DNA of 64,000 nt from a virus: positions 248,001 through 312,000 of the IMG/VR virus record IMGVR_UViG_3300032116_000001. The stretch is one strand, 5' to 3'. Shown here piece after piece: positions 5,241 through 62,428 of the stretch. How positions within the stretch are numbered: position 1 is the stretch's first letter; each line of letters starts with the position of its first letter. The notes under the pieces were generated by a model that did no database searches, was not told where the DNA came from, and saw only the letters and a program-made list of their open reading frames with translations. The position numbers and the translations under genes are program-made.

Positions 5241-6632
5241 ATGATTGATCCTAATAAAATTATCTCAGATGCAAATTGTGTTGTTTGCGGTACTCCACCT
5301 GAAGAAGGCTCAACTGACCAGCGTTACATTCAGTTTCATGATCGTAAAATATTTTTGTGCGGCAAGCATGCCGAGGCCTTTCATATTGGTGCTGTGATGG
5401 GTCAGCTAGAGCTAAATTCTGCATTAGCGGAATTTATTTTAAAAATGGACGATCCATTAAATTCTCAACAAATCAAAGAGCACATACTTGAAATGGTTCC
5501 GTCAGCACGGCGGCAACTTGAAGATAAGCAATTGCAAGCTCATATAAAAGGAACATATAAGGAGCAATCACCTAGAGAAATTTATGAATATCTTGACAAA
5601 AATGTTATTGGCCAAGAAGAAGCAAAAAGACGCATAAGTTTAGCAGTCTACGAACATTATAAAAACGCCCAAAGACGCGCAGATAGCCCGCTATTAGAAA
5701 AACAAAATATACTTATGCTTGGGCCTTCTGGAAGTGGAAAAACATTAATTGCAAATTCCATTGCGAAAATATTAGACGTTCCATTTGTGTCCGCCGATGC
5801 AACAAGTTATTCTCCCACAGGGTTTCAGGGCGCAGATGTTGATACCATTATTTTTGAAATGATGTACAAATCAAGCGGGGTACATCATGCCGCAGAACAA
5901 GGCATTGCATTTATTGACGAAATTGACAAGCTTTCAACACATGCAATGCAAGGCACAAAATCAGAGGGCTTAAACTACGCAACACAAAGTTCTTTACTTA
6001 AACTTATTGAGGGCAAAAAAGTAAAAGTGCCAATGCAAAATTTGGGCCACCCGCCTGGAACAATGACAATGGTGGATACAACCAAGATGCTTTTTATGTT
6101 CGGCGGGGCATTTAACGGACTTGCTGAGCAGGTGGGCAAGTTGATGGGATACTCTGGAAGAACCATTTCCTTATCCAAAAGAAATGAAGAAGATCGTATA
6201 GAATCTTCGATACGCTCGTATAATATTCTTGCCGAAGCGTCAACCGATGTGATCATAAAAGCGTTGATAGATTTTGGAATGAACACCGAGTTTATTGGTC
6301 GAATTCCAATTATTGTTCCGCTTGCGCCACTAACTAAAGAGCAACTTTACAAGTGCTTAATTGATTTGCCAAACTCGCCAGTTTCCAGATCGCAAATGCT
6401 TTTCGCGGAATCAGGAGTAAAATTGGAGTTTGAGGAAAGCATGCTTCAGGCAGTTGTTGAAACAACTGCCAAATCAGACACAGGAACTCGTGCTTTAAAT
6501 ACTCTTGTTAAAAGAGCTGTTAGCCAAGCCGCGTTTGATCTTTTAGGTTCAGAACCTTCCAGAAAGATCAAACATGTTGTTATAACAAATGAGTGCATTG
6601 CCAATCCAGAATCGTATGTTACAATTAATTAA
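5241..6632 (+). CDS. clpX: ClpX-like AAA+ unfoldase without a recognisable ClpP-binding loop
   Basis: 463 aa. The N-terminus has a zinc-finger pattern (CVVC near residue 13, then CGKH), as in the ClpX adaptor-binding domain. The AAA+ module has Walker A GPSGSGKT, Walker B AFIDEIDK, a pore-loop-like GFQG where ClpX has GYVG, sensor 1 FGGAFNGL, EFIGRIP, and sensor 2 GTRAL. ClpX unfolds tagged proteins and passes them to ClpP through an IGF loop. Where that loop should follow FGGAFNGL the sequence reads GKLMGYSGRT and no IGF is seen, so it may act without ClpP. No clpP is visible in the window. Confidence 0.85.
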   Translation: MIDPNKIISDANCVVCGTPPEEGSTDQRYIQFHDRKIFLCGKHAEAFHIGAVMGQLELNSALAEFILKMDDPLNSQQIKEHILEMVPSARRQLEDKQLQAHIKGTYKEQSPREIYEYLDKNVIGQEEAKRRISLAVYEHYKNAQRRADSPLLEKQNILMLGPSGSGKTLIANSIAKILDVPFVSADATSYSPTGFQGADVDTIIFEMMYKSSGVHHAAEQGIAFIDEIDKLSTHAMQGTKSEGLNYATQSSLLKLIEGKKVKVPMQNLGHPPGTMTMVDTTKMLFMFGGAFNGLAEQVGKLMGYSGRTISLSKRNEEDRIESSIRSYNILAEASTDVIIKALIDFGMNTEFIGRIPIIVPLAPLTKEQLYKCLIDLPNSPVSRSQMLFAESGVKLEFEESMLQAVVETTAKSDTGTRALNTLVKRAVSQAAFDLLGSEPSRKIKHVVITNECIANPESYVTIN

Positions 6633-34561: not shown

Positions 34562-35788
34562 ATGCCAGAAATATTTCGTATTAGTGGTATGCATATTTCA
34601 AATATAATTTACAAAGGCGACCACGATGAGGCTACAATAAAGCAGATTCAGAATTGCGCTACAGATGAGTATGCGCAGCATGCTGTGCTGTGTGCAGATG
34701 GACACAAAGGTTGGAATATGCCCATTGGCGGCGTAGTGGCTTATGAAAATCACATCAGCCCTGCGGGAGTTGGGTTTGACATTGCGTGTGGTAATAAGGC
34801 CGTGCAGCTCAATGTAACATACGATCAAATTAAGGACGATTTGGCCAAAATCGCTGATGAAATTTTTGCATCTTTATCATTCGGAGTGGGAAGGGTGAAT
34901 AATGAGCGTGTCGAGCATGATGTATTTAATGATGCTGCGTGGCGCAACGTTAACTTTCTTCGTAAAACTCAATCGTTGATGCCTCTTGCTAGAGAACAAC
35001 TTGGTACTATCGGCTCTGGTAATCATTATGTAGATGTGTTCAAAGATGAAAAGGATTGTGTATGGGTGGGTGTTCACTTCGGTAGCCGAGGCCTTGGGCA
35101 CAAGATTGCCACTGAGTTCATTACTCAAGCTGGTGCAAATCCCAATGGTAACATGGATGATCCTCCTTGTCTTTTGGATGTAAACACTTCACTGGGGGAA
35201 GACTATATTCAAGCTATGAATTTAGCAGGACGGTATGCTTATGCAGGAAGAGACTGGGTGTGTCAGAAGGTGGCTTCTATCCTTGGAGCACAGATCGTGG
35301 AAGAGATTCATAATCACCATAATTTTGCATGGAAGGAGAATCATTTTGGCTCGGATTATTGGGTAGTCAGAAAGGGAGCTACTCCCGCGGCTCCTGGGCA
35401 GAAGGGATTTGTCGGCGGATCAATGGGCGAAAACTCTGTGATCCTTGAGGGTGTTGACACTGAAGAATCTGCGAAAATGCTTTATTCTACAGTACATGGC
35501 GCAGGCCGTGTACTGTCAAGAACTCAAGCCGCAGGCAAAACAAGATGGGTGAACGGAGAAAAAATCAGAGTTTCTGAAGGCCTTGTGAACATGGATAATG
35601 TTTTAAAGAATCTTTCCGAAAGTGGTGTAATCCTTCGTGGCGGTGGTGCTGACGAAGCGCCAGAGGTTTACAAGAGATTACCCGAAGTGCTTGCGCATCA
35701 TGGAAATACGATCAAGGTTGTTCACCAATTGAGCCCACTAATTGTGTGTATGGCGGGATCGGAAATCAGAGACCCGTATAAAGATTAA
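34562..35788 (+). CDS. rtcB: RtcB RNA-splicing/repair ligase
   Basis: 408 aa, the full length of RtcB. Metal-site residues are visible in AGVGFDIACGN (Asp73, Cys76) and HFGSRGLGH, and the guanylylated His in STVHGAGRVLSR; the C-terminus has LSPLIVCMAGSE. RtcB joins 2',3'-cyclic phosphate or 3'-phosphate ends to 5'-OH ends with GTP and Mn2+, as in repair of RNAs cut by ribotoxins or anticodon nucleases. It heads a run with an HNH gene, prs and nadD. Confidence 0.92.
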   Translation: MPEIFRISGMHISNIIYKGDHDEATIKQIQNCATDEYAQHAVLCADGHKGWNMPIGGVVAYENHISPAGVGFDIACGNKAVQLNVTYDQIKDDLAKIADEIFASLSFGVGRVNNERVEHDVFNDAAWRNVNFLRKTQSLMPLAREQLGTIGSGNHYVDVFKDEKDCVWVGVHFGSRGLGHKIATEFITQAGANPNGNMDDPPCLLDVNTSLGEDYIQAMNLAGRYAYAGRDWVCQKVASILGAQIVEEIHNHHNFAWKENHFGSDYWVVRKGATPAAPGQKGFVGGSMGENSVILEGVDTEESAKMLYSTVHGAGRVLSRTQAAGKTRWVNGEKIRVSEGLVNMDNVLKNLSESGVILRGGGADEAPEVYKRLPEVLAHHGNTIKVVHQLSPLIVCMAGSEIRDPYKD

Positions 35789-35798
35789 TTAATGCCGC

Positions 35799-36575
35799 AT
35801 GAGTCATACTAATCCCCAAACACTAGAGCGAAAACACTACGATAATATCAAGGTGTTTTCGCCCGATGATATTTTGATGTTTTTAACTTCAAGAAGGAAG
35901 GCTAACTGGTATCTTAAAAAAGGCATTGCCGAAGATATCATCGGGGATGCGTCGTCAATTAAGCTGAAATTTAAGCCGAATCAGCTTGGCCATCACGGTG
36001 ATGATTTTTATCTTAATGAAAAAGACAATATTTGTGTATGTTGTGGTTCATCTTGTGAACTAACAAGACATCATGTCATACCTAAGTGTTTTAGCAGGTA
36101 TATGCCAGCAAAATACACAAAGCACTCGTCGCACGATGTTCTACTGCTGTGTCGTGTGTGCCACGAAAAGTACGAAGATTCTGCCACTGCTATTAAAATG
36201 CAAATGATTGAACCATTTGCACAAAACTATAGCGAAGTAAGAAAAGCCAGCAGTGCCGCCCGCGCCATACTTAACAACTATGACAATTTAAGCTTTGAAA
36301 GATTTCAACATTATTTTCATATCATTGAAAACTATTTAGATAATGATTTTAGCCAAGAAGCATTAAGAAATTTAGCCAACATAAATAGTGGATATCAAAA
36401 AAATTGGTGGGCCGAGTACATTGCCAATTTAGAAAACCTGGATGAATTTAATAAATTTTGGCGTTCACATTTTATTGAAACATTAAAACCAAAATATCTC
36501 CCGCACGGCTGGAGCGTAGATAGATTGCCAAGTCTTATTTTGGCGGAACAAAAACAAGAGGAATATTCATTATGA
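35799..36575 (+). CDS. HNH-type zinc protein (endonuclease-like), 258 aa
   Basis: A zinc HNH module at about residues 75-125: CVCCGSSCELTRHHVIPKCF followed by CRVCHEKY. The two CxxC and HH are consistent with an HNH fold. The N- and C-terminal parts are helical. It starts 10 bases after rtcB and overlaps prs by 4 bases (ATGA). A homing-type or nucleic-acid-processing role is possible. Confidence 0.65.
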   Translation: MSHTNPQTLERKHYDNIKVFSPDDILMFLTSRRKANWYLKKGIAEDIIGDASSIKLKFKPNQLGHHGDDFYLNEKDNICVCCGSSCELTRHHVIPKCFSRYMPAKYTKHSSHDVLLLCRVCHEKYEDSATAIKMQMIEPFAQNYSEVRKASSAARAILNNYDNLSFERFQHYFHIIENYLDNDFSQEALRNLANINSGYQKNWWAEYIANLENLDEFNKFWRSHFIETLKPKYLPHGWSVDRLPSLILAEQKQEEYSL

Positions 36576-37537
36576 ACAATATTATGGTTTTCGGCGGTGG
36601 GTCTCATCCCCAATTAACACATGATATTTGTAAAATAATGTCATTGTCTCCTGGTAAAACTTTAACAACTCGATTTTCTGATGGCGAAACGAGGGTAATC
36701 ATTGAGGATTCGGCTCGTGGGAAAGACGTATTCATCATTCAGCCGACTTGCGCTCCTGTGAATGACACATTTATGGAATTGTTTATCATGGCTGATGCTT
36801 TCAAGCGAGCTTCGGCAAGAACAATTACAGCTGTAATGCCTTATTTTGGATATGCCCGACAAGATAAGAAAGTGAAACCCAGAGAACCAATTACTGCCAG
36901 AATGGTGTGCGATTTTCTTAAAGCCACTGGTGTAAATAGAATAATGGCCATTGACATTCATGCTGAACAAATTCAAGGCTTCTTCGACGGTCCATTTGAC
37001 CATCTTTATGCTGGTCCAATTTTTGCCAATGCCCTGTCATATGTCGAGAAAACTCCAGATGATTATGTGATTGTCAGCCCTGACGCTTCTGGAACGAAAA
37101 GGGCGGAAAATCTTGCCAAACATTTAAATTGTGATTTTGCTATCATCACAAAAAACAGGCCGTCTCCAAATGCTGTTACACCAGGTAAGCTTATTGGTAA
37201 TGTAAAAGGCAAAAAATGTATCATATTGGATGATATGCTTGATACATGTGGAACTATTTGTCAGGCGGCTGACATGCTTATTGATGCTGGAGGCGTTTCT
37301 TCTATGGCTTGTTGCACTCATCCAGTTTTGTCGGGGAATGGAGCGAAAAAAATAGGAGAAAGCCAGTCCATTGAAAAGATTTTGGTTTTAGATACGATAC
37401 CCATTAGTCCACAAAAGCTTAATCAATTAAATAACAAGGCTGAAATTCTATCTTGTGCCGATTTGATTGCGCAATCTATCAAGTTGCATACAAGAGGGGA
37501 ATCTGTCAGCAGTTTGTTTTCGGAGTGGAGAGTTTGA
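36572..37537 (+). CDS. prs: Ribose-phosphate pyrophosphokinase (PRPP synthetase)-like
   Basis: 321 aa, full length. TRFSDGETRV, QPTCAPVNDTFMEL, PYFGYARQDKK (ATP/metal region), AIDIHAEQIQGFF, SPDASGTKRA, and the PRPP-binding loop IILDDMLDTCGTI are all present. It makes PRPP from ribose-5-phosphate and ATP. Phage Prs homologues include Adps of the NARP1 pathway, which pyrophosphorylates ADP-ribose instead, so the substrate is not settled. Translationally coupled with the HNH gene (ATGA) and nadD (TTGA). Confidence 0.88.
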   Translation: MNNIMVFGGGSHPQLTHDICKIMSLSPGKTLTTRFSDGETRVIIEDSARGKDVFIIQPTCAPVNDTFMELFIMADAFKRASARTITAVMPYFGYARQDKKVKPREPITARMVCDFLKATGVNRIMAIDIHAEQIQGFFDGPFDHLYAGPIFANALSYVEKTPDDYVIVSPDASGTKRAENLAKHLNCDFAIITKNRPSPNAVTPGKLIGNVKGKKCIILDDMLDTCGTICQAADMLIDAGGVSSMACCTHPVLSGNGAKKIGESQSIEKILVLDTIPISPQKLNQLNNKAEILSCADLIAQSIKLHTRGESVSSLFSEWRV

Positions 37538-38106
37538 GAGTTGGTATTTTCGGTGGGAGCTTTGATCCTCCTCACTTGGGTCACGCGCAAATTCTTTGCG
37601 ATGCTGTTCATGCAATAAATCTTGATAAAGTGATTGTTGTACCCGCGAAAGTGAGTCCTTTTAAAATTGGTTCCACAAAAACACCCCCAGAGCACAGACT
37701 CAGAATGTCTCAGTTGGCATTTCCGAATGCATCGGTAAGTGACATAGAGATAGCTCGCCCAGAACCAAGTTTTTCATATTACACATTGCTTGATTTTCAA
37801 AAGATTATAAACGGGGAATTTTGGTGGATAGGGGGCACTGATTTATTATCAGGGTTAACAAAATGGCACAAAATCGAAGAGATGGCTGGTGCTTGTCGTT
37901 TTGCGATAGGCAATAGGCCTGGGTTTTGCAAGAGGCAGGAAGATGATTTACCTGACTGGCTTGTTAATAAAATTGACTTCTTTGACTCTGATCACGGAAT
38001 TAGCCTGTCTTCCACTGTGATTAGAGAAAATAAAGACATATGGGAATCTGGTCTTGACCCCTTAGTGAGAGAATATATTGCGTCTCAAAATTTATATCTA
38101 CAATAA
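37534..38106 (+). CDS. nadD: Nicotinate/nicotinamide-nucleotide adenylyltransferase
   Basis: 190 aa from a TTG start at 37534 (MRVGIFGGSFDPPHLGH) overlapping the prs stop by 4 bases; this replaces an in-frame ATG at 37453 inside prs. The GxFDPxHxGH nucleotidyltransferase motif, PPEHRLRM, WWIGGTDLLSGLTKWHK and SLSSTVIR (for the usual ISST.IR) identify NadD. It adenylates NaMN to NaAD. With nadE (49854) it would complete NAD synthesis from NaMN. Confidence 0.9.
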   Translation: MRVGIFGGSFDPPHLGHAQILCDAVHAINLDKVIVVPAKVSPFKIGSTKTPPEHRLRMSQLAFPNASVSDIEIARPEPSFSYYTLLDFQKIINGEFWWIGGTDLLSGLTKWHKIEEMAGACRFAIGNRPGFCKRQEDDLPDWLVNKIDFFDSDHGISLSSTVIRENKDIWESGLDPLVREYIASQNLYLQ

Positions 38107-40574: not shown

Positions 40575-40966
40575 GTAAGTATCAGAGTAAATACATCGCT
40601 TTTGTGGTCGGAGCAGGGGAGGGTTGTGATTACACGATGGGTTGTAATCGCAGCCTCTTTGAGATCGTGGCAGAAACAGATGACCAGGCACACAAGGGGC
40701 TGTTTGAACTTCTATTTGGCGAGTGGTGTGAAGATAGAAAATGCTGGGTAAGCTCTGGGTTACATAATCCCGACAATCGTGTTGGCGAGGTGTATCTGTT
40801 CAAGGTTGACTCGTGCTCAGGAAACATCATAAGCGAGATGCTTCAGACAAAAGATATTTTTGACAATTCCGAAAAAGAGCAGATCGAGACAATTCGCCGT
40901 CATAAGTCCGAGGAAGCGGAACGCCTTGAATATGAGCGCCTCAAAGCCAAGTTCGGAGAACAATGA
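40571..40966 (+). CDS. Hypothetical protein between two ligase genes, 131 aa
   Basis: It overlaps both neighbours by four bases (ATGA), so it is made together with the DNA and RNA ligases. Motifs: GAGEGCDYTMGCNRSLFEIVA and a long charged C-terminal helix (EAERLEYERLKAKFGEQ). No family recognised. Confidence 0.65.
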   Translation: MSKYQSKYIAFVVGAGEGCDYTMGCNRSLFEIVAETDDQAHKGLFELLFGEWCEDRKCWVSSGLHNPDNRVGEVYLFKVDSCSGNIISEMLQTKDIFDNSEKEQIETIRRHKSEEAERLEYERLKAKFGEQ

Positions 40967-41577
40967 AATCCTATCCATCTATTCCGCAAAGTACAGGCCA
41001 GTCATTTTGTGAGTTTCAGGCGTATGTTTTTGACAAACTTGACGGATCGAACTTGCGCTTTGAATGGGCGCGAAAATCGGGCTGGGGCAAGTTTGGGACA
41101 CGTAATCGGTTATTTGACGAGAGCGATCCTGTATTTGGCTCGGCAATACCCATCTTCTTTGATACTCTTGCCGAGCCCATCGAGAGAGTTGCGAGCATGG
41201 AAAAATGGGAACGTGTCACAGTATATGCCGAGTTCTGGGGCGAGAAAAGTTTTGCTGGCTTACATGAACCTGGTGATCCTAAAGTCCTAACACTCTTTGA
41301 TGTCGCACCTCACAAGAAGGGTTTACTCGGCCCACAAGAGTTTTTGAAGAAGTTCGACCACCTTCCAATTCCTAAGCTTCTAGGCCAGATGAAATGGACA
41401 CGCGACTTAGTACAGCGTGTGCGAGAGGGCGAACTTGAAGGAGTGACTTTTGAGGGAGTGGTTGGCAAGGCTGGCGAGGGTCACAAGCTCATTATGGCCA
41501 AAGCAAAAACTCAAGCCTGGATCGATGCAGTTCGGTCCCGATGTGGCGCAACCGCCGATCAGATAATTGCCAGTTAA
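40963..41577 (+). CDS. RNA ligase (Rnl2-like nucleotidyltransferase)
   Basis: 204 aa. Motif I FDKLDGSNLRFEW (adenylated Lys), GTRNRLF (motif Ia), VYAEFWGEKSF (motif III), EGVTFEGVVGKA (motif IV), and KLIMAKAKT (motif V) fit the Rnl2/DraRnl group. It seals 5'-phosphate/3'-OH RNA ends. With RtcB this gives the phage two different chemistries for RNA repair. Higher GC than many neighbours. Confidence 0.78.
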   Translation: MKSYPSIPQSTGQSFCEFQAYVFDKLDGSNLRFEWARKSGWGKFGTRNRLFDESDPVFGSAIPIFFDTLAEPIERVASMEKWERVTVYAEFWGEKSFAGLHEPGDPKVLTLFDVAPHKKGLLGPQEFLKKFDHLPIPKLLGQMKWTRDLVQRVREGELEGVTFEGVVGKAGEGHKLIMAKAKTQAWIDAVRSRCGATADQIIAS

Positions 41578-42573: not shown

Positions 42574-44217
<1,644 letters not shown>

Positions 44218-44302: not shown

Positions 44303-45178
44303 ATGAAGAAAGCCTTTACGCTCATCGAACTTCTTGTTGTTATCGCAATTATTGCTATTTTAGCTGCGATTCTTTTCCCCGTCTTTTCTCAGGCCAAGCT
44401 TGCCGCCAAGAAAACTGTTGGTTTAACCCAAGTTAAACAGATTGGAACATCAATGCAGCTGTATGTCGGCGATTATGATGACATGCTGTTTCCGTACCGA
44501 CTTAATGGTACACAAAACCCCGATTATGCCCGCGCCATTGCTGCTCGGGGGCAGGCGTATGCCGATAGCGTTGTAGGAACTAGTGCAAGAAATGTTATTT
44601 TCTTTAACCAGCTTCTGCAACCATATATGAAAAATAATGATATTTTCAAGGCACCTACCAAGCCAAATGCCTGGGCTGGCGTTGATACTTTCGGTTCTGA
44701 CACTGAACCTGCATTCCGATCTTACGGCGGACAAAACAGCTATGGTGTTAACAATTATGTGTTTACATCTCAGGCGGGCACGTCATCAATCGGCGGGGGG
44801 CTTAATATGGGCGAAATAGCAGAACCAAGCAATACTTTGATTATGGTTGATGCAAGCTATTATAATGTTCTTCCCCGATTCGTTGGAAGACTTAATGGAT
44901 ACACTGGCACATTTAATGTGTGCAGCAGCAGTTACCCGTTGTATTGGAAGAATCTCGGCAACTCCTATCTCTTTAGATGGAATGGTGGACCAAACACGCC
45001 ATCTGACGCTGAAGCTCTGCGATTGATTAATAACCGATATAATGGACCATTGAATATGGTTCAGGGCGACACTAGTTCAAGAGCCGTTGCAGCTAATGCA
45101 ATTCTGAACAACCTGAGAGATCGGGGCGCAGAATCATTTTGGGACCCATACAAACTCGGCAACACTCCATGTCCGTAA
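44303..45178 (+). CDS. Type IV pseudopilin-like protein 1
   Basis: 291 aa. A short leader MKKA then [18 protein letters not shown], the prepilin cleavage/methylation motif with Glu5, and [14 protein letters not shown], followed by a globular Ser/Gly/Asn/Tyr-rich domain. This wording is common in Armatimonadota, Planctomycetes and related pseudopilins (DUF1559-like). The typical H-x9-DG motif is not clear here. In a phage it could modify the host pilus (superinfection exclusion), or be a passenger gene. Confidence 0.8.
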
Positions 45179-45209
45179 TGCAACAAAACTGCATTATATA
45201 ACGTATAAT

Positions 45210-45255: not shown

Positions 45256-46017
45256 ATGAGACAGGCTTTTACACTTATTGAATTACTTGTTGTGATCGCA
45301 ATTATCGCGGTTTTGGCTGCAATCCTTTTCCCAGTTTTTTCACAAGCAAAGGAAGCTGCCAAGAAAACTCAGTCGATTTCCAACATGCGCCAACTTGGTA
45401 TTTCCTGGCAGCTTTACAATACTGACTACGATGATACCTTAATGAGAGTTTCTGTGCCTGATGAGCATGGTGTGGTTTATTGGTGGGGATGTTGGGAAGA
45501 AGACGAACAAGAACTTAGAGTTGAGGAAGGCCTTTTATATCCTTATACTCGAAACAATGGTATTTACAAGGATTCATCTTTTAATGCTCAAGTTACGGGA
45601 AGTATGAATTTCTCTGGGTATGGATATAATTATGCTTATTTGAGTCCGTCAACTTATTCTCCTCCGAACTGGGAAGAAAATCCCATTCCCGTAAATGCTT
45701 CATCGATTGAGTTTCCATCTGAGACAGTCGCTTTTGCATCAAATGCGAGACTAAATACATGGGCTTATGACAATCCTGTTTTAGAGGGCACGGGATACTT
45801 AGAGCCACCTTCTTTCGATTTCCCAACATTTCAGGGCCGACACAATAAGCATGGCGTAGTACTTTGGTCTGACGGGCATGCCAAGGCGCAAAAGCCTATT
45901 TTGAGGACTGGGGACTTCGGCTGGGGATATAACGGGGCTCAGTTTGCCCCATATAATCTTGGGGAAATAGATAAAGATGGTAATCTTTCAACTGATGAAC
46001 TTTTTGATTTAGAGTGA
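45256..46017 (+). CDS. Type IV pseudopilin-like protein 2
   Basis: 253 aa. MRQA then [18 protein letters not shown] and [19 protein letters not shown], nearly identical to the preceding gene at the N-terminus, then a different globular domain. The C-terminal part has H-x9-DG ([12 protein letters not shown]), a signature of the DUF1559-type pseudopilins. It ends 47 bases before the tmRNA. Close pairing with pseudopilin 1 suggests a duplicated unit from the host. Confidence 0.82.
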
Positions 46018-46064
46018 ATTTGCAACAGGTGTTGATCAACAAACGTAGAATAATAAAACACTAC

Positions 46065-46422
46065 GGGGGCATAAGGGATCGATTGACGTTGCTATCTTAT
46101 GTTTGCAAGGCGCGGATGTATCCTTGGCCGCGATAACAAAGGATGCAAAAAGTAAATGCGGAAAACAACTTCGCTTTCGCTGCTTAATTAAGCTGGCGCA
46201 TGAACCTGAGACGAGTCTGTAGTTAATGGGGATTGTAAAATAAATCAGACTTAGCTTTGAAACTTCGGCTTGTAGTTGAAAAAGCGATATTAATCAAGCT
46301 GCTGTCAAGAAAGTGCTGGCCTCTAGCCAAAGCTTGACTTAAGATTAATATGAGGAGAACCTTGTGGCGAGCATAGGCTCTGTACGGACAACAAGCGGGT
46401 TCAAATCCCGCTGCCTCCACCA
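46065..46422 (+). ncRNA. ssrA: tmRNA (transfer-messenger RNA)
   Basis: About 358 nt. The 5' end GGGGGCA (46065-46071) pairs perfectly (one G-U) with TGCCTCC (46412-46418) before ACCA, and the T-arm GCGGGTTCAAATCCCGC precedes it, so it has the tRNA-like ends of tmRNA. The tag frame reads VNAENNFAFAA then TAA (46152-46187), ending in the AA needed for ClpXP recognition. The resume codon is not certain; it might be GTA 46152 or GCG 46158. It rescues stalled ribosomes and tags the products. A phage-encoded tmRNA is rare. Confidence 0.88.
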
Positions 46423-46427
46423 ATTTT

Positions 46428-46461
46428 GCAGTATGATTTTTTCATACTGCTTTTATTTTTT
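46428..46461. terminator. Terminator after tmRNA
   Basis: GCAGTATGA (46428-46436), TTTTT loop, TCATACTGC (46442-46450), then a run of T (TTTTATTTTTT). It also lies at the 3' end of the leftward 54-aa gene. Confidence 0.85.
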
Positions 46462-61424: not shown

Positions 61425-61988
61425 ATGAAAACCTACTTTACGGCGGACCTACACTTCGGTCACGCAAATGTCATTAAATACAATTCTAGGCCATTTAACT
61501 CAGTAGAAGAGCACGATAGGGCTTTGGTAGACAATTGGAACTCCGTCGTCACTAACAAAGACCGTGTGTATTTTCTTGGAGACTTGGCATTTCACCCTAG
61601 CTCTGCTGCGAAATGGGTGGAAAAGCTAAATGGCCTTAAGTATTGGATTAGAGGCAACCACGATAATCCCTCAGTGCTCTCTAATCTTCGGCAATATTTT
61701 CAATGGGTCAGAGAGATGGAAGAAATTTGCATATTAGACAATGATGCTCCTCATGGAAAGCGATACATAACCTTGAATCACTATGCTATGCGCGTCTGGA
61801 ACAAATCTCACTACGGGGCATGGCATCTTTACGGACACAGCCATGGCTTGCTCCCAGATGATCCAAACTCACTTTCTTTTGACGTGGGTGTTGATTGCCA
61901 CGATTACACTCCGATTTCATATGATCGTGTAAAAGAAATTATGAGCCTTAAAACATGGACCTCTCCATTGGAAAAACAAAACACATGA
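61425..61988 (+). CDS. Calcineurin-type metallophosphoesterase, 187 aa
   Basis: Start at ATG 61425 (MKTYFTADLHFGHANVIKYN), preceded by GTATAATAA as a possible -10. Motifs DLHFGH, LGDLAF, GNHDN and GHSHG are the complete metal-site set. Small phage enzymes of this kind act on phosphoesters, e.g. 2',3'-cyclic nucleotides or Ap4A. Overlaps speD by ATGA. Confidence 0.85.
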   Translation: MKTYFTADLHFGHANVIKYNSRPFNSVEEHDRALVDNWNSVVTNKDRVYFLGDLAFHPSSAAKWVEKLNGLKYWIRGNHDNPSVLSNLRQYFQWVREMEEICILDNDAPHGKRYITLNHYAMRVWNKSHYGAWHLYGHSHGLLPDDPNSLSFDVGVDCHDYTPISYDRVKEIMSLKTWTSPLEKQNT

Positions 61989-62428
61989 AAGACCTCTCTG
62001 CTAACAATAGTCAATACTTATCGGTTGAATTTTTTAATGCCAATACATGTGAAATCCCGACCATAAAATCCTGTAATTCATTAGGTATGCATGTAATTCT
62101 GGAGCTTATTGGATGCAACCCCAATAATATGAGCGGGGTTGAGAAAATTCAACAAGCTTTTCATGATGCAGCAAAGCTGGCCAAGTGCAACATCGTCACA
62201 GAAGCGTTTCATGAGTTTGAGCCCCATGGCGTTTCAGGAGTTGTTGTAATAAGCGAGAGCCATTTGACCTATCATGGGTGGGATGAACATGGTTATGCCG
62301 CGATTGATTTTTTCTATTGCAGCGATGAAGTGCAAATATCTTTGGCCATTGAACACATAATGAAGTTTCTAGAGGCCGAAAGTTATCAAATCACTGCAAT
62401 CCCCCGTGGATTTAAAAACAGTGTATAA
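61985..62428 (+). CDS. speD: S-adenosylmethionine decarboxylase
   Basis: 147 aa from ATG 61985 (MKDLSANNSQY), coupled to the preceding gene (ATGA). LGMHVILELIGCN, VISESHLTYHGWDEHGYAAI and DFFYC give the SpeD self-processing motif (ESH, Ser becomes the pyruvoyl group) and the downstream Cys. It makes decarboxylated SAM for spermidine synthesis. Confidence 0.85.
   Translation: MKDLSANNSQYLSVEFFNANTCEIPTIKSCNSLGMHVILELIGCNPNNMSGVEKIQQAFHDAAKLAKCNIVTEAFHEFEPHGVSGVVVISESHLTYHGWDEHGYAAIDFFYCSDEVQISLAIEHIMKFLEAESYQITAIPRGFKNSV

Follow-up and report, generated by a model that had tools for sequence, protein, structure and literature searches.

The window examined here, bases 248001-312000 (64,000 nucleotides) of the 378,848-base IMG/VR record IMGVR_UViG_3300032116_000001, carries a gene for transfer-messenger RNA (tmRNA; ssrA), in which tRNA-like and mRNA-like parts, a G3·U pair, pseudoknot 1, a tag reading frame, a terminator and a phage context can be read from the sequence. 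We consider it probable, with rather good confidence, that this is a complete, probably separately transcribed phage tmRNA, which would add trans-translation capacity to the infected cell. This explanation is favoured by the intact anatomy of the gene, its terminator, a promoter-like motif common to other genes of the record and the phage hallmark genes, as well as by the tmRNA of a relative with a 53% identical terminase, the excess of synonymous differences in the long tags of other phages, and the existence of close tags in bacteria. The gene is an intact new example of an already known phage-borne type. In total, 242,000 bases of the record were read, the window included.

Structure of the tmRNA gene

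The gene and its parts are as follows (window positions, all on the plus strand):
46065..46422, plus strand: one-piece tmRNA gene (ssrA), 358 nt (ARAGORN; RF00023)
46065..46071, plus strand: 5' strand of the acceptor stem, GGGGGCA, 7/7 pairs with 46412-46418, third pair G·U (helix counting)
46111..46146, plus strand: pseudoknot 1, helices of 5/5 and 8/8 pairs (helix counting)
46158..46187, plus strand: most likely tag frame, AENNFAFAA and UAA, resume codon GCG (ARAGORN coding part 94-123, end of pseudoknot 1, UAAAU context)
46182..46193, plus strand: hairpin with the tag stop codon, 4/4 pairs, 8 when a longer stretch is folded locally
46395..46422, plus strand: T arm (5/5 pairs), 3' strand of the acceptor stem, A73 and encoded CCA (sequence, helix counting)

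An earlier note, made from the letters of the window, had placed an intact phage tmRNA at 46065-46422, and ARAGORN returned exactly these coordinates. The covariance model of the tmRNA family, the check asked for in that note, accepts the sequence: RF00023 scored 91.3 bits against a cut-off of 47 (E 3.4e-34) and covered model positions 1-374 of 374. No other RF00023 match in the record exceeded the cut-off; twelve weaker ones were listed, and the six of them run through ARAGORN as separate loci (L002-L005, L007, L008) all hold tRNAs. The tRNA-like ends were said to pair perfectly, and they do pair fully, with 7/7 pairs in the acceptor stem, the third being G·U, and 5/5 in the T stem. A G3·U70 pair in the acceptor stem is the alanine identity. 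In addition, one helix of pseudoknot 2 (6/6 pairs) and one of pseudoknot 4 (7/7 pairs) were found by eye. As all helices were located by eye and counted singly, the counts are descriptive, with no test against chance, and the Rfam E-value serves as the test. In an RNAfold prediction for the two tmRNA ends joined by N, the T arm was absent from the minimum structure.

The gene shares with the bacterial one-piece tmRNA (ssrA, RF00023) its length, the tRNA-like domain with G3·U, pseudoknot 1, the AA-ended tag, the stop-codon hairpin and the encoded CCA; it differs in being phage-borne, in the longer linker before the T arm and in the exact tag. At the DNA level, blastn, within its sensitivity, found no match to the tmRNA among 50,697 phage records.

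Tag reading frame

The tag had been read as VNAENNFAFAA-stop. The frame is indeed open back to VN and the stop is intact; the first two residues are probably untranslated, and a tag of 9 codons, AENNFAFAA, is the most likely one. According to PMC2481249, translation in E. coli resumes at a codon 12 nt past pseudoknot 1, and the key upstream base, A86, is four bases ahead of that codon. In the present gene pseudoknot 1 ends at tmRNA position 82, and the GCG at position 94 is directly preceded by UAAAU, the A at -4 occupying the position of A86; the same UAAAU context stands ahead of the frame in a terminase relative (L210, see below). Since the 12-nt spacing and the A at -4 both fit E. coli, the GCG at position 94 is the most likely resume codon, and resumption there would therefore give nine encoded residues preceded by the tRNA-borne alanine (AAENNFAFAA). 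Known tags have 8-35 residues (PMC8012679).

The pattern [ED]NN[FY]AFAA matched 39 stretches in genome_contigs, 36 of which proved to contain an ARAGORN tmRNA (L133, L141 and L142 gave none); as Neobacillus contributed two, 37 bacterial tags were obtained. ADENNFAFAA and DENNFAFAA occur among bacterial tmRNAs, an ending that the search pattern itself demanded. None of the 37 is exactly AENNFAFAA, nor was this tag found in viral_contigs, where the record of the window itself may be left out, and the strings AENNFAFAA, TMTFEDAMA and FEDAMAFVG (the latter two from the phage tags discussed below) occurred in no paper of a limited literature search restricted to open licences. We also considered the tag as a pointer to the host and rejected this use: it does not single out a host, because the stretches with the near-identical pattern span Bacillota and Bacteroidota, to which nearly all 39 belong as read from their titles.

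Phage origin of the record

Host chromosome would have been a normal location for ssrA, as the earlier note had itself recognized, yet the record encodes a terminase large subunit (phrog_36964, E 2.7e-36) and rIIA (phrog_612, E 1.2e-100), and no bacterial 16S rRNA was found in it by a search that was positive in only 9 of 14 control genomes. The protein family scan of the parts read also revealed a DnaB-like helicase and a sigma factor, and further genes encode a DNA ligase and PhoH; a match to Mu gp36 stayed below its cut-off, and the structural families PF03237 and PF04984 had no match. Proteins without a PHROG made up 5/9 of one scanned set and 3/10 of another. From these sequences, we read the record as that of a divergent phage. 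A search with a helicase led to no near kin (nine loci at 32-36% identity; 1004 phage records, all below 60%), and the search with the terminase gave three relatives, at 100, 88 and 53% identity, the first two being fragments (4.6 kb and 46 kb, respectively) without tmRNA.

Neighbouring genes and expression signals

The surroundings of the gene comprise the following features:
42577..44217, plus strand: GroEL-type chaperonin, upstream (PF00118, E 3.9e-73)
44303..45178, plus strand: prepilin-like protein, the first of two
45256..46017, plus strand: prepilin-like protein, directly upstream of the tmRNA (PF07963 / TIGR02532)
46044..46053, plus strand: promoter-like motif CGTAGAATAA, ahead of the tmRNA
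46428..46450, plus strand: intrinsic terminator, a 9-pair stem and then a T run, just past the CCA end
46691..46763, plus strand: tRNA with CUA anticodon, amber suppressor type (ARAGORN, Rfam)
46784..46858, plus strand: second tRNA with CUA anticodon, CCA encoded (ARAGORN, Rfam)
47315..47390, plus strand: tRNA-Lys (UUU) (ARAGORN, Rfam)
47402..47477, plus strand: tRNA-Lys (CUU) (ARAGORN, Rfam)

Copies of the promoter-like motif were also seen at 45202, ahead of a prepilin gene, and at 46671, ahead of the first CUA tRNA. The pattern CGTA[GT][AT]ATAA, drawn by eye from these two sites and 46044 and the best of several patterns tried, occurs 10 times in 242 kb, and 9 of the 10 occurrences are intergenic, while the intergenic share of bases is 10.3%; without its three defining sites the ratio is 6/7. 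None of 200 permuted motifs had 9 intergenic matches (79/667 pooled). For the five patterns tried first, the total number of matches and the mean in shuffles were 3/2.5, 3/1.4, 10/6.2, 2/4.25 and 7/13.15; of the four later ones, with 9/10, 6/8, 11/15 and 11/16 intergenic matches, the first is the one reported. The scan for consensus sigma-70 promoters found no site just upstream of the tmRNA and three altogether, versus 4.2 in shuffles. Judged from the motif and the terminator, the phage tmRNA is probably expressed.

The second prepilin-like protein (45256-46017) contains an H-x9-DG motif, noticed by eye. Such prepilin neighbours may be reminiscent of Armatimonadota or of Planctomycetes-Verrucomicrobia.

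Partner proteins

Searches for SmpB (PF01668), which were positive in 10 of 14 controls, gave no match in the record, which is possibly incomplete, and none in another 12 viral records with a tmRNA, of which many are fragments. A stand-alone trans-translation system is not supported, as no SmpB was found encoded alongside the tmRNA; because none was found in 13 tmRNA-bearing viral records, host SmpB is probably used.

The earlier note had also supposed that a ClpX-like unfoldase of the phage could recognize AA-ended tags. The protein in question is as follows:
5241..6632, plus strand: ClpX-like AAA protein (NCBIfam, 279 bits, below the cut-off of 359)

The RKH loop and the GYVG pore loop are signatures of tag-reading ClpX, and the IGF loop serves the contact with ClpP. 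Alignment with ClpX chains from PDB, the top-matching of which we take to be E. coli ClpX, showed LGH in place of RKH, GFQG in place of GYVG, and no IGF. With these signatures absent and no ClpP (PF00574) found in the record, neither the supposition nor a degradation route made by the phage is supported. Two pattern matches to the ClpX-like protein were retrieved from viral_contigs, neither of them confirmed. On these sequence grounds, the phage would depend on SmpB and proteases of its host.

tmRNAs of other phages

Phage tmRNAs had been called rare in the earlier note, a view weakened by the published record and by our screening. PMC4131195 lists phage ssrA genes, and phage genome announcements report them as well. 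Published examples include the tmRNAs of mycobacteriophages (Bxz1, Wildcat, cluster C) and of Bacillus phage G, which are phage-borne as in our case but belong to phages of other hosts and gave no DNA-level match in blastn. Huge metagenomic phages likewise include ones with tmRNA (Al-Shayeb 2020, PMC7162821); the same source reports SmpB in huge phage genomes, whereas we found none in our 13 tmRNA-bearing records, many of which are fragments.

Among viral contigs bearing GroEL (75 loci), 39 records of at least 30 kb were tested for tmRNA, and 11 contained one above the cut-off. ARAGORN assigned tags to 10 of the 11, one of 10 residues and nine of 23-28 (e.g., DVELSTMTFEDAMAFVGADYAVAA), compared with 9 residues in the present gene; as here, no SmpB was found in the GroEL records tested. 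ARAGORN was also run on the stretches around 60 other GroEL loci of the 75 and found a tmRNA in none of them, which indicates that the GroEL-tmRNA neighbourhood is not conserved.

Long tags, many of them near-identical, such as DVELSTMTFEDAMAFVGADYAVAA and ANVELSTMTFEDAMAWMNSFDYAVAA, were seen in other phage contigs (L085-L088 and L090-L094, which bear GroEL, and 24 of L172-L201, found by a tag pattern). The pattern TMTFEDAMA matched 30 viral stretches, with an ARAGORN tmRNA in 24; in three of the six without one (L173, L178, L192) the match lies at one end of the stretch. Together with the 11 tmRNAs of the GroEL records, the 30 pattern stretches make up 41 loci from 36 records, five of the pattern-stretch records (L178, L183, L187, L189, L191) being already in the GroEL set. 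A 22-codon frame is present in 26 of the 41 loci (22 records) in 11 distinct DNA versions, whose variable columns number 4, 3 and 10 at the first, second and third codon positions. There are 9 synonymous codon types versus 7 amino-acid changes, while 23% of random single changes would be synonymous (relatedness uncorrected). This suggests, at the level of sequence, that the long tags are translated in those other phages.

The 347-kb terminase relative at 53% identity possesses a tmRNA (108.2 bits), the neighbour genes of which differ:
L205 / L210:9535-9919: tmRNA of the 347-kb terminase relative, tag of 20-23 residues, Arg/Lys-rich, ending in AMVA

ARAGORN gives its tag as AKKNRRNGFGSAQAGFAMVA, beginning three codons later than the aligned start, which would add GKN. 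Approximately 3 kb downstream of this tmRNA, a ClpP-like open reading frame (ORF) was noticed by eye (L210:12775-13350). In another viral record, L095:1483-1777 was reported by ARAGORN as 'tmRNA*', its mark for a permuted gene, with the tag GKQVEYAMAA and an Rfam match below the cut-off.

The tags differ in length across lineages, from 9 residues in this gene and 20-23 in that of the terminase relative to mostly 23-28 in GroEL-phages, which brings up the more general idea that tmRNA serves phages as a modular tool for tagging, with the rescue core kept, the tag evolved in each lineage, and the stalled proteins sent to a fate chosen by the phage and not simply to degradation by the host. We regard this idea as speculative and rather unlikely.

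UAG codons and the CUA tRNAs

The earlier note drew attention to suppressor tRNAs beside the tmRNA. Two tRNAs with the CUA anticodon do start 269 and 362 bases downstream of it, but UAG is not reassigned, being a rare genuine stop. In the stretches read, 163 ORFs of at least 150 amino acids end in TAA (120), TGA (28) or TAG (15). The RecD-like helicase and rIIA both end in TAG, and their family matches extend to profile positions 740 of 743 and 703 of 725, respectively; because these proteins match their families to near the end, UAG acts there as a stop. The stretches read thus do not fit an amber-recoded phage with UAG as a sense codon.

The CUA tRNAs may be linked in function to the tmRNA. 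If they are, the tmRNA would clear ribosomes that read through UAG due to the phage CUA tRNAs; this would be a special case of extra trans-translation, nested in that explanation and not exclusive with it, and the confidences that we express in the individual readings are not meant to sum to one. Besides the adjacency of the genes, it is favoured by the position of the next in-frame stop, which is nearer after TAG (median 3 codons) than after TAA or TGA (11 and 15.5; p 0.0035 for ORFs of at least 150 amino acids). When any next stop counts and the ORFs have at least 100, 150 or 200 amino acids, p is 0.0034, 0.0035 and 0.016, respectively. PMC6207430, a work on unassigned UAG codons, names ribosomal rescue in its title. 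However, the effect loses significance when only TAA and TGA are counted as back-up stops (p 0.11, 0.12 and 0.38 for the same three length limits), no CUA tRNA lies within ~1.5 kb of the tmRNA in any of the 11 other tmRNA-positive GroEL records, and one GroEL record that lacks a tmRNA above the cut-off has a CUA tRNA (L012 in G004). On balance, we give such a role a low probability.

Alternative explanations

The gene could also be cargo, i.e., a captured host ssrA travelling with GroEL and the two prepilin genes, expressed or not, and of little benefit to the phage. Its neighbours are host-like genes, no syntenic relative was found, and the absence of tmRNA around GroEL at all 60 other loci means that the block is not a conserved unit. 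On the other hand, the same promoter-like motif stands ahead of a prepilin gene and of the first CUA tRNA as well as of the tmRNA, and it recurs elsewhere in the record, and tmRNA recurs in phages, namely in 11 of the 39 GroEL-bearing records and one of the three terminase relatives. Passive carriage thus appears improbable to us, slightly more so than the read-through role. Far less probable is a decoy, an RNA that soaks up SmpB or alanyl-tRNA synthetase and blocks trans-translation in the host, as proposed for molecules consisting of the tRNA-like domain only, since the tag, pseudoknot 1 and the stop hairpin, all needless for a decoy, are retained. Finally, ssrA 3' ends are known integration sites, and phages integrating there may carry the gene end, but a relic of this kind is hardly credible for a gene of full length (with the 5' half, tag, promoter-like motif and terminator), unlike a 3' fragment, and the scan, which covered part of the window proteins, named no integrase.

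Several points weigh against the explanation that we prefer, a phage tmRNA adding trans-translation capacity. In the Rfam alignment, which has a mean accuracy of 0.69, several helices contain pairs marked as non-standard, and the foot of P2 accounts for six of these. Most of the 16 tmRNAs that were aligned have GGAC next to the T stem, a layout from which the linker before the T arm deviates here. With no SmpB of its own found, the function would rely on that of a host. Moreover, the three terminase relatives include no near one with a syntenic tmRNA.

Other genes of the phage

A PARP that also has WGR and regulatory domains is encoded at L164:2163-3443 (PF00644, E 1.9e-27). Genes of NAD supply, for PRPP synthetase, NadD and an NAD synthase with a carbon-nitrogen hydrolase domain, lie at 36572-38106 and 49854-51659 of the window and possibly counter an NAD-depleting defence. 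The window also holds a gene for RtcB RNA ligase, together with a match to RNA ligase that stayed below its cut-off (34562-35788 and 40963-41577); the same phage has the Lys tRNAs listed above, and these ligases could repair cleaved tRNA. S-adenosylmethionine decarboxylase (61955-62428; TIGR03330, above the cut-off) and a transposon protein of the TnpB/OrfB type (L170:5218-6396; PF01385, PF07282) are encoded as well.

Proposed function and significance

Extra trans-translation during infection is the function that we infer as most likely. The tmRNA would be transcribed in the course of infection, charged by host alanyl-tRNA synthetase and bound by host SmpB; it would then release ribosomes stalled on messages that are broken or have been read through, adding AAENNFAFAA to the unfinished protein, which would be degraded by host proteases.

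A lineage of huge phages whose closest relatives in viral_contigs are fragmentary thus gains a well-preserved tmRNA with a promoter-like motif and a terminator. The phage tmRNAs of the 13 tested records probably plug into host SmpB. The diverging and partly conserved long phage tags exposed by the comparison are a more surprising lead than this tmRNA itself.
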